A DNA stretch of 64,000 nucleotides from Pyxidicoccus trucidator (GTDB lineage Bacteria; Myxococcota; Myxococcia; Myxococcales; Myxococcaceae): assembly GCF_010894435.1 (NCBI RefSeq), contig NZ_JAAIXZ010000007.1:219339-283338 (forward strand), given 5' to 3'. The position numbers and the translations under genes are program-made. The notes beneath the pieces are model-generated. The model saw only the letters and a list, made by a program, of their open reading frames with translations. It did no database searches and had not been told where the DNA came from. This document shows positions 36,051-40,329 of the stretch, one piece after another (within the stretch, counting starts at the first letter, position 1; each line of letters starts with the position of its first letter).

Positions 36051-36280
36051 GGCGTGTGGGAGTCGCTCCGCTGCGCTGCCCCTTCCAGACTCTTCATCCG
36101 GTATGTCCCGCCCTGGCGCCTGGCGTGTAGGAGTCGTTCCGCTGCGCCGCGCCACCCATCCAGGCGCCTCAGTCGGTGTGGCCGCCCCGGCGCCTGGTGT
36201 GTAGGAGGCGCTCCGCCACGCCGCGCCGCCCCTTCCAGACTCTTCAGCTGGTGTGTCCGCCCTGGCGCCTGACGTGTGGG
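36051..36280. repeat. Imperfect tandem repeats of ~71-76 bp
   Basis: Three consecutive units start at 36051, 36122 and 36195, each opening GG(C/T)GTGT(G/A)GGAG, and each ends with the sequence CGCCCxGGCGCCT. A truncated fourth begins at 36271 with GACGTGTGGG. Units 1 and 3 share CCCCTTCCAGACTCTTCA in the middle, which unit 2 has altered. The array fills the gap between the CBS gene's terminator and the collagen-like lipoprotein gene and is not in a credible coding frame. Confidence 0.75.
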
Positions 36281-36394
36281 TCGGTCCAAAATGCCTGGTC
36301 GACGTTTTTGGGCCTGTGCGCGGCCTCGCACCGGTTCCCACTGCGCTGGCCGCGCTTCATGCCGGACCGTGCGCTCTTCTTCACGGGGGTTGGT

Positions 36395-37879
36395 ATGCGC
36401 GTCCTTTCGTCGTTCTGTGTTCTCGGAGTGCCGGTGCTGCGGGCCACGCTCGTGGTGGGCCTCCTGGGCATGACTGCCTGCAAGGGGGGCGAGGGCGTGG
36501 AAGGGGCCGTGGGGCCACCGGGGCCCCAGGGACCCGAAGGTCCTCCGGGGCCCGCGGGCGGGCCTCCCGGGCCCCAGGGACTGAACGCGCTGATGCTCAC
36601 CACGCCGGAGCCCGCGGGGGAGAACTGCGCCTTCGGCGGCGTGAAGATGGAGGCCGGCATCGACGCCGACCGGGACGGGGCGCTGCGGGAAAACGAGGTG
36701 AACGCCGCGAACACGCGCTACCTCTGCAACGGTGTGGCGGGTGCGGTGGGGCCCCAGGGGCCGCAGGGCCTGGTGGGGGCCACGGGCCCGCAGGGTGAGC
36801 GCGGCGAGACGGGAGCGGCAGGGCCGATGGGGCCGCAGGGGCTCCGGGGGGACATCGGTCCCGAGGGCCCGCGCGGTGCCACGGGGGATGTGGGCCCGGC
36901 GGGGCCCACCGGTTCCACGGGCGCGCAGGGGCCGCAGGGGGAGCATGGCGCGCTCGCGCTCTACGGGGACGGCTCCGCCGGGGACCTCACCCTCTTCTCC
37001 TCCAGCCCGTTGCGGAACCTGGCCATTGGCTACGGCTCGCTGCCGGGTGGCGCCAACCTCATGTTCCGCAACGTGCGCATCGACGGCACCCTCATCGTCG
37101 CGAGCGGGACGGTGATTCGTGCCACCGGTGACATCATCATCGGTCCGACAGGCATCATCGCCGCCAACTCGGAGCCGCAGGTGCAGAGCGTCAACCCGCC
37201 GGGAACGGGCCTCGCCATCTCCGCCGCGGGAGGCTACCAGGGCGGCCGGGGCCTGGACCTGGGCCGGTCCGCGCTGCTCACCCGCTTCGACCTGCGCGGC
37301 GGCGGCGGAGGCTTCCGCCCGATGGCCCATCCCACCTTCATCTCCGGCGGCGAGGCCGGCGGACGCATCATCCTGGCCGCGCGGGGCAACGTGACGGTGA
37401 ACGGCACCATCGAAGTCGATGGCCGCAACGCACGGAACACCGGTGCCGCCGGGCAGGCGCTGGCGGGCGGTGGCGGTGGCGGTGGCGGTGTGGTCTCCAT
37501 CGTCTCCCGCGGCACCATCACCCTGGGCTCGAACGGCTTCATCCGCGCCAACGGAGGCAATGGCGCCAACGGCGTCTCGGGCGTCAGCGGCACGCTCTAC
37601 GGCGCGGGTGGCGGTGGCGGTGGTGGCATCGTCCAGTTCCTCACGGCCAACACGCCCGTCATCGCCAACGTCGCCAACATCCAGGTGGCCGGCGGCGCCG
37701 CGGGCACGCCGGCCGTCCAGGGCACGGCCACCTCGCTCGTCGCGGGAGGCGGTGGCGGCGGCTCGGGCGGAGATGGAGGAGAGGGCACCTTCGCGCTCAC
37801 CAACGGCGCCGCCGAGGCGGGCACGACGGGAGACACCAACACGACTGTCACCCCGCAGCCCGAGCTCCTCTTCTACTGA
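36395..37879 (+). CDS. Collagen-like lipoprotein with DUF7151-type insert and Gly-rich beta region
   Basis: A 494-residue surface lipoprotein with lipobox GMTAC (Cys29). A first short collagen-type Gly-X-Y run follows (~37-60, GPPGPQGPEGPPGPAG), then a ~45-residue module (ENCAFGGVKMEAGIDADRDG, then YLCNG) matching DUF7151, with two Cys and a calcium-loop-like DADRDG. A second collagen run of ~60 residues (~115-180) comes next. The remaining ~310 residues are beta-helix-like and Gly-rich (GGGGGGGG tracts, LIVASGTVIRATGDIIIGPTG). It is probably a rod-like cell-surface or matrix protein. The start at 36395 gives the signal sequence. It stands alone, preceded by tandem repeats and followed by a terminator hairpin shared with convergent thrS. 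Confidence 0.85.
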   Translation: MRVLSSFCVLGVPVLRATLVVGLLGMTACKGGEGVEGAVGPPGPQGPEGPPGPAGGPPGPQGLNALMLTTPEPAGENCAFGGVKMEAGIDADRDGALRENEVNAANTRYLCNGVAGAVGPQGPQGLVGATGPQGERGETGAAGPMGPQGLRGDIGPEGPRGATGDVGPAGPTGSTGAQGPQGEHGALALYGDGSAGDLTLFSSSPLRNLAIGYGSLPGGANLMFRNVRIDGTLIVASGTVIRATGDIIIGPTGIIAANSEPQVQSVNPPGTGLAISAAGGYQGGRGLDLGRSALLTRFDLRGGGGGFRPMAHPTFISGGEAGGRIILAARGNVTVNGTIEVDGRNARNTGAAGQALAGGGGGGGGVVSIVSRGTITLGSNGFIRANGGNGANGVSGVSGTLYGAGGGGGGGIVQFLTANTPVIANVANIQVAGGAAGTPAVQGTATSLVAGGGGGGSGGDGGEGTFALTNGAAEAGTTGDTNTTVTPQPELLFY

Positions 37880-38022: not shown

Positions 38023-39225
38023 TCAGGCCTCCGCCGCCGGACGGCACGCGGCGACCAGCTCCGCCACTGCCTCGTCCCACGGCAGGTCGCGCTGGGCACC
38101 GTCGCGCTGGCGCAGGCGTACGCCGCCGGCCTCCACCTCGCGTTTACCCACCACCACCAGCCACGGCGCGCCGACGCCGTGCGCGTCGACAATCTTCCTC
38201 GACAGCGACTCGCCCCGGACGTCCGCCCGGGCACGGCAGCCCGCCTCGCGCAGCCGGGCGGAGAAGCGCTCCGCGTAGTCCCCGGCGGCGTCACCCACCG
38301 ACGCCACCACCACCTGCTCCGGGGCCAGCCACGCCGGCAGCGCACCGCCGTGGTGCTCCAGCAGCACGCCGATGAAGCGCTCCAGGCTGCCGAGCAGCGC
38401 ACGGTGAAGCATCACCGGACGGACCTTCGCACCCGAGGCGTCCACGTAGCGCAGGTCGAAGCGCTCCGGGAGCACCAGGTCGAGCTGAATCGTCCCGCAC
38501 TGCCACGCGCGCCCCAGCCTGTCTTTCAGCACGAACTCCAGCTTGGGCCCGTAGAAGGCGCCCTGGCCCGGCTGCATCAGGCACTCCAGCCCCGCCTCCT
38601 TCGCGGCGGACAACAGCCACGCCTCGGCCTTGTCCCAGACGGAGTCCTCACCGGCGCGCACCTGGGGCCGGCTGGAGAAGGCCACCTGCACGTCGTCGAA
38701 GCCGAAGCCCGCGTAGAAGTCCTTCAGCGAGCGCGCGAAGCGGACCACCTCCCGCTGCACCTGGTCCTCGGCGCAGAAGATGTGGCCGTCATCCTGCGTG
38801 AACTGGCGTAGGCGGAACAGGCCGTGCAGCGCGCCACCCGGCTCGCTGCGGTGCACGAGGCCGAACTCACCCAGCCGCAGTGGCAAGTCCCGGTAGCTGG
38901 GCGCCATGCGCTGCACGATTTCGATGTGGCCCGGGCAGCTCACCGGCTTCAGCGCGAGGTGCCGCTCTCCGTCCGGCACGAGGAACATATTCTCGCGGAA
39001 GTTCTCCCAGTGGCCGCTGCGCTCCCAGAGGGGCTGCGCGTAGAGCTGCGGCGTACGGACTTCGCGGTAGCCCTCGCGCTCCATGCGGCGGCGGACGTGC
39101 TCCTCCAGCAGCCGGTACAGCATCAACCCGCGGGGGTGCCAGAACACCATGCCGGGGGCCTCTTCCTGCAGGTGGAAGAGGTCCAGGCGCTGGCCCAGCG
39201 AGCGGTGGTCGTGTTCGTCAAGCAT
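38023..39225 (-). CDS. thrS: Short threonyl-tRNA synthetase lacking TGS and editing domains
   Basis: A 400-residue class II synthetase that charges tRNA-Thr. It contains the full catalytic core: motif 2 region FRLRQFTQDDGHIF, and the zinc ligands Cys97 (KPVSCPGH), His148 (DDGHIF) and His274 (VMLHRALLGS). A C-terminal anticodon-binding domain follows (~300-400, VVVASVGDAAGDYAERF). The ~240-residue N-terminal TGS and editing domains of ordinary bacterial ThrRS (~640 residues) are absent, and the protein starts directly at DHRSLGQRLDLFHLQEEAPGM. GGAG lies 6 nt before the ATG. Upstream is a Thr-rich leader peptide with hairpins, implying induction when charged tRNA-Thr is scarce. It is probably a second, stress- or resistance-type ThrRS; whether a full-length copy exists elsewhere is unknown. 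Confidence 0.95.
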   Translation of the reverse strand: MLDEHDHRSLGQRLDLFHLQEEAPGMVFWHPRGLMLYRLLEEHVRRRMEREGYREVRTPQLYAQPLWERSGHWENFRENMFLVPDGERHLALKPVSCPGHIEIVQRMAPSYRDLPLRLGEFGLVHRSEPGGALHGLFRLRQFTQDDGHIFCAEDQVQREVVRFARSLKDFYAGFGFDDVQVAFSSRPQVRAGEDSVWDKAEAWLLSAAKEAGLECLMQPGQGAFYGPKLEFVLKDRLGRAWQCGTIQLDLVLPERFDLRYVDASGAKVRPVMLHRALLGSLERFIGVLLEHHGGALPAWLAPEQVVVASVGDAAGDYAERFSARLREAGCRARADVRGESLSRKIVDAHGVGAPWLVVVGKREVEAGGVRLRQRDGAQRDLPWDEAVAELVAACRPAAEA

Positions 39226-39250
39226 GTGCGTCTCCGTTTCGGAAGTGGTG

Positions 39251-39336
39251 AAAAGCCCATCCGGACGGAGCGCTGAAGCGAGCGCACGGTTGCCCCGGCC
39301 GGAGAAGGCGGGGCAGGGAACCGTGCGTTCGTCAGC
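39251..39336 (-). promoter_or_regulatory. Attenuator hairpins of the thrS leader
   Basis: After the leader-peptide stop, a stem-loop at 39284-39326 pairs GCACGGTT with AACCGTGC plus five G-C pairs around a small bulge. A 5-bp hairpin (GCGCT/AGCGC on the minus strand) and a TTTT run (39251-39254) follow before the thrS start. CGTGGTG at the leader end (39338-39344) can also pair with CACCACG within the Thr codons (39379-39385). Together these give the alternative pairings an attenuator needs; which stem terminates is inferred. Confidence 0.6.
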
Positions 39337-39417
39337 TCACCACGCGACGCGCACCGCTCCACGCCCGCCGAAGCGAGTCGTGGTGGTGGTCGCAGTGGTG
39401 AAATTGACGATGCTCAC
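39337..39417 (-). CDS. Threonine-rich leader peptide of thrS
   Basis: A 26-codon frame, GTG at 39417 to TGA at 39337-39339, reading SIVNFTTATTTTTRFGG and ending AVRVAW. Seven of eight consecutive codons are Thr (one Ala interrupts), using ACC, ACT and ACG. The peptide ends 111 nt before the thrS ATG, with hairpins in between. This is the design of ribosome-mediated attenuation: a ribosome stalled for lack of charged tRNA-Thr would stop the downstream hairpin from forming and allow thrS transcription. No strong ribosome-binding site is seen; a TTG three codons earlier is an alternative start. A TTGACT (39448-39453, minus) suggests a nearby promoter, in which case the message may be nearly leaderless. 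Confidence 0.75.
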   Translation of the reverse strand: MSIVNFTTATTTTTRFGGRGAVRVAW

Positions 39418-39502
39418 GCTGAACAAGGTGCAGGCCCGCGCACGGAAAGTCAAGTCGACCTCCAGGGCTGGAGGGCGCCCGAGCGCGGGCCCACGGAGTG
39501 CC

Positions 39503-39898
39503 TCAGTAGAGCCAGCGCAGCTTGGGGGAGAAGCTGTTGCGGCCGCAGGTCAGGAGGCCGGTGGCGCCGCCCGAGCAGCACTGCTGCTCCGCGCCCTCGA
39601 CGGAGCAGGACGTGCCTGCAAGCGAGGTGCACGTGGGCAGGCCCGAGCACGTCGCGGGACAGGCGGTGAACACGCCGTTGCAGGTGACGCCCTGGTAGTT
39701 GGTCGAGGAGCAGGTGGTGCCCGAACAGGAGACGGACTGCCCTCCATTGCACAGCGCGGTACAGGTCGCGAACTGGGAGACGGTCGCTTGCTCACCCATC
39801 TCGGGCGCCGCTCCGGCTTCCGTCTCCGTGGCTGCGCCTCCACAACCCAGGAGGGAGAGGCTGAGGAACGCCACCAGCACCGCGAATGAATGCTTCAT
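39503..39898 (-). CDS. Cysteine-rich small lipoprotein (A)
   Basis: A 131-residue lipoprotein. The leader ends SLLGC (Cys19), then a short acidic Ala/Glu linker, then a Cys-rich mature region with ~13 Cys in spacing such as CTALCNG, SCSGTTC, CPATCSG and EQQCC. This suggests a small disulfide-stabilised surface or secreted domain. No family is recognised. The ~45 bp before its start are similar to those before lipoprotein B (40081-40329), including a TACCCT/TACACT box, so the two are probably co-regulated paralogues. It is separated from thrS by its leader region. Confidence 0.72.
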   Translation of the reverse strand: MKHSFAVLVAFLSLSLLGCGGAATETEAGAAPEMGEQATVSQFATCTALCNGGQSVSCSGTTCSSTNYQGVTCNGVFTACPATCSGLPTCTSLAGTSCSVEGAEQQCCSGGATGLLTCGRNSFSPKLRWLY

Positions 39899-40080: not shown

Positions 40081-40329
40081 TCACGGACAGGCCCAGCCGG
40101 CGCTCGTGCAGAAACAGGAGTAGGTGTTCGTCCCGAAGCAGCAGCTCGTCGTCAGGCCCCGCTTCCCACAGTACGTGAGGTCGAGGTCATCGCAGTGCGG
40201 AGTGCCGGCGGCACAGAGCGCGTCGGTGGCCGTTCCGAAATCCTCGGGGAGGACCTCGGCGTCGGCTCCGCCACAGCCCAGCAGGGAGGCACCGAACAGC
40301 ACCGCCATCGCAACAATGGAACGCTTCAT
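40081..40329 (-). CDS. Cysteine-rich small lipoprotein (B)
   Basis: An 82-residue lipoprotein with leader ending SLLGC (Cys19), an acidic linker (DAEVLPEDFGTATDA) and a ~45-residue domain with eight Cys (HCDD, TYCGKRG, SCCFG, SCFC, WACP). The compact size, high Cys content and lipid anchor resemble small disulfide-rich surface peptides; no family is recognised. It may be a distant paralogue of the neighbouring lipoprotein A, sharing the leader style, acidic linker and upstream element. Both genes are on the minus strand, with a 182-bp gap that is too far for an obvious operon and better explained by parallel promoters. Confidence 0.68.
   Translation of the reverse strand: MKRSIVAMAVLFGASLLGCGGADAEVLPEDFGTATDALCAAGTPHCDDLDLTYCGKRGLTTSCCFGTNTYSCFCTSAGWACP

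Follow-up and report, generated by a model that had tools for sequence, protein, structure and literature searches.

In Escherichia coli, the threonyl-tRNA synthetase encoded by thrS represses its own translation, and in Bacillus subtilis a second threonyl-tRNA synthetase (ThrRS) gene, thrZ, is controlled by a T-box. The leaders of erm genes act by sequestering the Shine-Dalgarno (SD) sequence. In actinobacteria, T-boxes upstream of ileS have an SD-sequestering output, and leader attenuators have been predicted for leuS and trpS2 (in Streptomyces) (PMC1262725). Leaders have been reported in front of alaS, trpS, leuS and thrS in Streptomyces lividans, and a leaderless Thr leader preceding a thrS gene is therefore already on record (PMC8079986). 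No report of a leader-peptide attenuator in myxobacteria was found in the open-access literature.

The region examined here lies upstream of a short thrS gene, designated thrS2, on the minus strand of the window (the whole 64-kb stretch of Pyxidicoccus trucidator DNA that was analysed). It is likely that this region is a ribosome-mediated attenuator, which would sense the charging of tRNA-Thr and control a back-up synthetase gene, with translation initiation as the most likely output. No match at the Rfam gathering level, T-box and Thr_leader models included, was obtained in the 64-kb window.

The thrS2 gene (positions 39225 to 38023, minus strand) encodes a protein of 400 aa, ThrRS2, that matches TIGR00418 with 450.7 bits from model position 170 onwards, and its Pfam matches are limited to tRNA-synt_2b and HGTP_anticodon, the catalytic and anticodon-binding domains. 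As ThrRS2 aligns without gaps to residues 241 to 615 of E. coli ThrRS, the TGS and editing domains are missing. In the alignment the zinc ligands C334, H385 and H511 and the catalytic residues R363, Q381 and Q484 are retained, and ThrRS2 is therefore predicted to be an active but editing-less threonyl-tRNA synthetase. ThrRS2 has Phe at the position of E. coli Tyr313, which stacks on A76 of the tRNA, and Val at that of Ser488, as do nearly all orthologues checked; these replacements (Y313F and S488V) could possibly alter the handling of the tRNA 3' end. A role as an antibiotic back-up with target-site resistance was considered and rejected. Changes at G463, L489 and H309 (E. coli numbering) give resistance to obafluorin or borrelidin, and since these residues are wild type in ThrRS2, a resistance enzyme of the ObaO type is not indicated.

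The long, normal thrS gene of the same genome is located on another contig (G000:C24) and is 48% identical to thrS2. The gene downstream of the leader, taken for thrS in the first-pass annotation, thus does encode a ThrRS, but it is a second, truncated copy that is separate from the housekeeping thrS. No Thr leader was found upstream of the long gene at its G000:C24 locus. The long gene (L182, G000:C24:5500-9500) lies directly 3' of a co-directional tRNA gene, and the two may be cotranscribed. In a ThrRS tree, for which the outgroup was picked by similarity to thrS2, the thrS2 sequences formed a single group (support 100/100) that was separate from the long ThrRS of myxobacteria and lay beside enzymes of the Pseudomonadota, which rules out a recent duplication of the host's long thrS as the origin of thrS2.

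Two small genes encoding Cys-rich lipoproteins (131 and 82 aa; positions 39503–39898 and 40081–40329, minus strand) are located upstream of thrS2, and neither product has a Pfam or NCBIfam match. A gene for a collagen-like repeat protein with DUF7151 (36176–37879, plus strand) is convergent to thrS2.

The leader ORF extends on the minus strand from a GTG at 39417 to a TGA at 39337 (26 codons; peptide VSIVNFTTATTTTTRFGGRGAVRVAW) and includes seven Thr in codons 7 to 14 (TTATTTTT; 39376–39399). This frame, singled out in the first-pass annotation, can be read directly and was found upstream of all 66 thrS2 orthologues of the family. The run is the sole stretch with at least 7 Thr per 8 codons in the six frames of the 64-kb window, and no such stretch arose in 30 order-2 Markov simulations; as it is conserved in the 66 orthologues, an origin by chance is untenable. 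The TTGACT at 39448–39453, suggested previously as a possible -35 element, proved equally constant, with TTGAC kept in 66/66 orthologues at 35–39 nt from the leader start codon (36 nt in 59/66). A probable -10 element, CACCTT (39425–39430; CATTTT, CATCTT or CACTTG in orthologues), follows at 17 nt. As this spacing puts the start of transcription on the start codon or immediately beside it, and as the ORF lacks an SD of its own, the simplest reading is that the ORF is probably leaderless, a property that had been overlooked when it was recognised as a Thr leader; transcription would begin on the GTG or a few nt away. We infer that translation of the leader ORF starts on a leaderless mRNA, on the assumption that GTG-started leaderless translation operates in myxobacteria.

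Of the 96 genomes of the family, 66 carried thrS2; in the rest, either the long gene alone or no gene passed the cut-off. The DNA upstream of thrS2 was examined for all 66. The leader ORFs are 23–28 codons long, contain 6–10 Thr and start with GTG (56) or ATG (10). Thr is encoded by ACC (319 codons), ACG (125) and ACT (72), and this third-base variation suggests that it is the amino acid that is under selection. The frame might instead encode a functional small Thr-rich peptide, or be no more than a side effect of structure in the 5' UTR. Conservation of the ORF would fit a functional peptide; however, beyond the Thr run the peptide sequence follows the demands of RNA pairing and not those of a protein motif, the end of the ORF varies in length and frame, and the alternative helices and SD pairing described below would be left unexplained, making this reading highly improbable.

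Six segments, each complementary solely to its neighbours (1:2, 2:3, 3:4, 4:5 and 5:6), were delineated from the Thr codons (segment 1) to the SD of thrS2, ACGGAG (segment 6). In helix 1:2 (39359–39383, minus strand, as for all following segments), predicted from folding and duplex energies, the Thr codons pair with CGTGG/GCGGG around a UUCG loop. The end of the leader had been proposed to be complementary to part of the Thr codons, and GTGGTG(A) does pair with the first Thr codons in the fold of the free RNA, but the main conserved pairing is CCACGACTCGC/GCGGGCGTGG flanking the UUCG loop (39383–39359). Segment 2 (GGCGGGCGTGGAGCGGTGCGCGTCGC; GGCGGG...GGTGCG; 39344–39369) lies within the leader ORF and would become the partner of segment 3 once a ribosome covers the Thr codons. 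Segment 3 (GAACGCACGGTTCCCTGCCCCGCC; 39307–39330; CGCACGGTTCCCTGCCCCGCC in the six-segment anatomy), which is longer in Corallococcus (CCCGCCCCGCC), pairs with either 2 or 4, as indicated by covariation of both helices. The hairpin 3:4 (39284–39326; GCACGGTT..AACCGTGC), predicted by folding and covariation at about -26 to -38 kcal/mol, has a GC-rich upper stem and no U-tract.

Segment 4 (TCCGGCCGGGGCAACCGTGC; 39284–39303) can pair with 3 or 5 according to folding, duplex energies and the sequence of a distant homologue (in genome G161, below). Segment 5 (GCGCTCCGTCCGGA; 39260–39273) is an anti-SD, predicted by folding, covariation and duplex energies to pair with 4 or 6, and segment 6 (39228–39237) comprises the SD and its flank, with CUCCGU/ACGGAG changing to CUCCGA/UCGGAG in relatives. 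A local UUCCG/CGGAG pairing can weakly cover the SD in both states. The first-pass annotation had placed helices in front of the synthetase gene, but segments 5 and 6, and with them the sequestration of the SD that is the likely output, had been missed.

Covariation was assessed in 36 non-redundant sequences against 500 shuffles, in which relatedness was not preserved. On this basis, helix 3:4 is 89.7% paired with 25 double-sided changes (8.7+/-3.3 when shuffled; 0/500) and helix 2:3 is 87.1% paired with 11 (4.4 when shuffled; 0/500). Helix 5:6 is 68.5% paired compared with 64.4+/-0.8 in shuffles, and both its pairs and its covariation score exceed all 500. Helix 4:5 is 89.3% paired and nearly invariant, with no covariation within the family; segments 4 and 5 are also constrained by their other partners. 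Against shuffled partners, the neighbouring duplexes had median z values of -1.8 (1:2), -2.8 (2:3), -3.1 (3:4), -2.1 (4:5) and -2.0 (5:6), whereas for the non-neighbour controls (2:4, 4:6, 3:5, 1:4 and 3:6) z was above 0 and significant in 0/36 species. Because the boundaries of the segments were set by eye with pairing in view, these z-scores are support that is partly post hoc and not an unbiased test. The comparison of relatives that had been recommended at the outset, for a conserved Thr-run frame and for compensatory changes in the stems, thus found both. As judged from the aligned upstream regions, three features can be regarded as established: the leader ORF with its Thr run, the spacing of the promoter, and the series of six neighbour-pairing segments ending in the SD of thrS2.

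A covariance model built on the Thr run through segment 4 was searched against the phylum and matched 69 genomes, namely the 66 above together with G138, G161 and G082. G138 belongs to another family of the same order, and its thrS2 (65% identical) is preceded by a leader with 6 Thr and the same promoter spacing. G161 belongs to another family of the phylum and carries a thrS2 with 56% identity, preceded by 8 consecutive Thr codons, again with the same promoter spacing. In G161, the predicted helices 4:5 (CCGGACGGGGCA/UGCUCCGUCCGG; 12 contiguous pairs, one of them G-U) and 5:6 (GCUUGCUCC/GGAGCAAGC; 9 perfect pairs) are both longer than in Myxococcus, making this genome the best independent case for the two pairings.

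In G082 (L214:949-1180, G082:C315), a Thr-run leader persists in front of a decayed thrS2 of which ~15 recognisable codons are left. In the P. trucidator genome, only the copy of the element at thrS2 is full. A 57-bp, 95% copy of leader segments 1 and 2 (L143:2170-2226; G000:C1:219170-219226, minus strand), with no thrS2 there, adjoins the 3' side of a gene paralogous to that for the small Cys-rich lipoprotein at 39503–39898 of the window, and resembles the remnant of a duplication that took in the lipoprotein gene and its flank.

Switching between the helices was examined by folding calculations in which the ribosome covered 15 nt 5' and 11 nt 3' of the A-site and the RNA ended after segment 3. 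In this model, occupancy of the Thr codons by a ribosome disrupts 1:2 and lets 2:3 form, the probability of 2:3 being ~1 in 66/66 species, compared with a median of 0.00 (above 0.5 in only 10/66) when no ribosome is present. Two further ribosome footprints gave the same outcome for 2:3. With the ribosome at the stop codon, the probability of 2:3 exceeded 0.5 in 29/66 models; as 2:3 is not prevented there, the off state would in many species come from release of the ribosome and refolding of the leader.

The median cost of opening the SD was 8.6 kcal/mol when 3:4 is formed and segment 5 remains available, against 4.2 kcal/mol once segment 5 is occupied by segment 4. The cost fell in 65/65 cases, but removal of a partner can only lower it, so the size of the change is informative and its direction is not; in Corallococcus the difference is small. 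In G161, the probability that the SD is unpaired was 0.39 with segment 4 free and 0.00 with segment 4 sequestered. In equilibrium folds of the full leader, hairpin 3:4 was always present and the SD was paired, also when a stalled ribosome was included, and the switch must therefore be kinetic and co-transcriptional, like that of classical attenuators. Even when segment 4 is available, 5:6 remains a competitor of 4:5 in several species, P. trucidator included. The sign of the relay is correct in the model, in that stalling leads to 2:3, then 4:5 and a free SD, and starvation to expression.

A U-tract (at least 5 U in 10 nt) was found behind 3:4 in 1/66 orthologues. The second stem-loop and TTTT run noted earlier between the leader and the gene are both present, but the TTTT lies in the loop of the later hairpin 5:6 and varies among orthologues, and its assignment to a terminator was therefore rejected. 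For these reasons an intrinsic terminator is unlikely, and of the thrL-type attenuation suggested by the first-pass annotation, Thr sensing and mutually exclusive helices are retained while the terminator output is probably wrong.

The same sensor could still act through termination, either at 3:4 or over the untranslated leader, by Rho or by a hairpin lacking U residues, with 2:3 as the antiterminator and 4:5 and 5:6 of secondary importance. The best-supported helices are 2:3 and 3:4, the latter of very high stability, a CUUUU follows 3:4 closely in G138, and actinobacterial leaders that lack U-tracts are thought to use Rho (PMC1262725). However, the U-tract is absent in 65/66 orthologues, and 5:6, which a terminator would not need, covaries over the SD and forms a perfect 9-bp helix in G161. 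Termination as the output is accordingly considered unlikely, though not negligible.

An SD-sequestering structure upstream of a thrS, together with the precedent of E. coli thrS, also raises the question of autorepression, in which ThrRS2 (or ThrRS) would recognise a hairpin of the leader that resembles a tRNA and so block its own synthesis at translation, the Thr codons being incidental. Against this, a Thr run with varied codons, which autoregulation would not need, is retained in 68 leaders, ThrRS2 has no N-terminal domains and there is no Rfam match; the chance that autorepression explains the locus is very small.

The preferred reading thus remains attenuation at translation initiation. 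The leaders combine a run of cognate codons in a short upstream ORF with exclusive helices, one of which is favoured by stalling, and, as in erm leaders, the SD is predicted to be sequestered by an upstream segment (via 5:6) in the non-stalled state; the intrinsic terminator of classical leader-peptide attenuation is not a feature of the 66 orthologues as a set. On this reading, the element would work like translational attenuation and be a leader-peptide attenuator in the broad sense, outside the classical intrinsic-terminator type.

When Thr-tRNA is ample, the ribosome would run through the leader and leave, the leader would refold to 1:2, 3:4 would form, and the free segment 5 would mask the SD via 5:6, keeping thrS2 off. 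When Thr-tRNA is scarce, because the cell is starved or because the main ThrRS fails or is inhibited, the ribosome would stall in the Thr run and 2:3 would form before segment 4 is made. Segment 4, once made, would capture segment 5, leaving the SD accessible and thrS2 translated. This output could be reinforced by polarity or by Rho-dependent removal of message that is not translated.

Tight control of thrS2 makes sense as an editing-less ThrRS is expected to misacylate with Ser, and it is suggested that myxobacteria hold this second enzyme off until charged tRNA-Thr is scarce, limiting misacylation. The element would be an amino-acid-sensing attenuator in which the apparent output is exposure of the SD instead of termination. 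The chain of five competing helices is unusually clear and can be tested via simple mutations. It would also add a phylum for which no leader-peptide attenuator was found in the literature, and the covariance model picks up further members.

Among known systems, the leader of the proteobacterial thr operon (thrL, Rfam Thr_leader) likewise has a Thr-rich leader peptide and alternative 2:3 and 3:4 helices, but it governs biosynthesis genes, includes Ile codons and ends in an intrinsic terminator, and its Rfam model does not match the myxobacterial leader. In ermB and ermC, stalling on a leader peptide also frees a sequestered SD via alternative helices, though stalling depends on a drug rather than an amino acid and the gene controlled is a resistance gene. 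B. subtilis thrZ is similarly an inducible back-up ThrRS under control of Thr-tRNA charging, but its T-box reads the uncharged tRNA directly, without a leader peptide. The actinobacterial leuS and trpS2 attenuators also provide leader-peptide control of an aminoacyl-tRNA synthetase gene, but for other amino acids, with U-tract terminators and no SD relay (PMC1262725). Similar again is thrL-thrS of S. lividans TK24, where a Thr leader precedes thrS, is leaderless and is followed by a hairpin without a U-run, with an unclear output mechanism; this is transcriptomic evidence from one genome, and the likeness is one of description (PMC8079986). That thrL encodes 18 aa with only two Thr codons, is from an actinobacterium and has no described SD relay (PMC8079986). 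For the myxobacterial locus, we lean towards a leaderless Thr ORF joined by a six-segment, five-helix relay to an SD ~140 nt downstream, which would attenuate the translation of a spare, editing-less ThrRS in an amino-acid-specific manner and be conserved in a Myxococcaceae clade and two further myxococcotal families.
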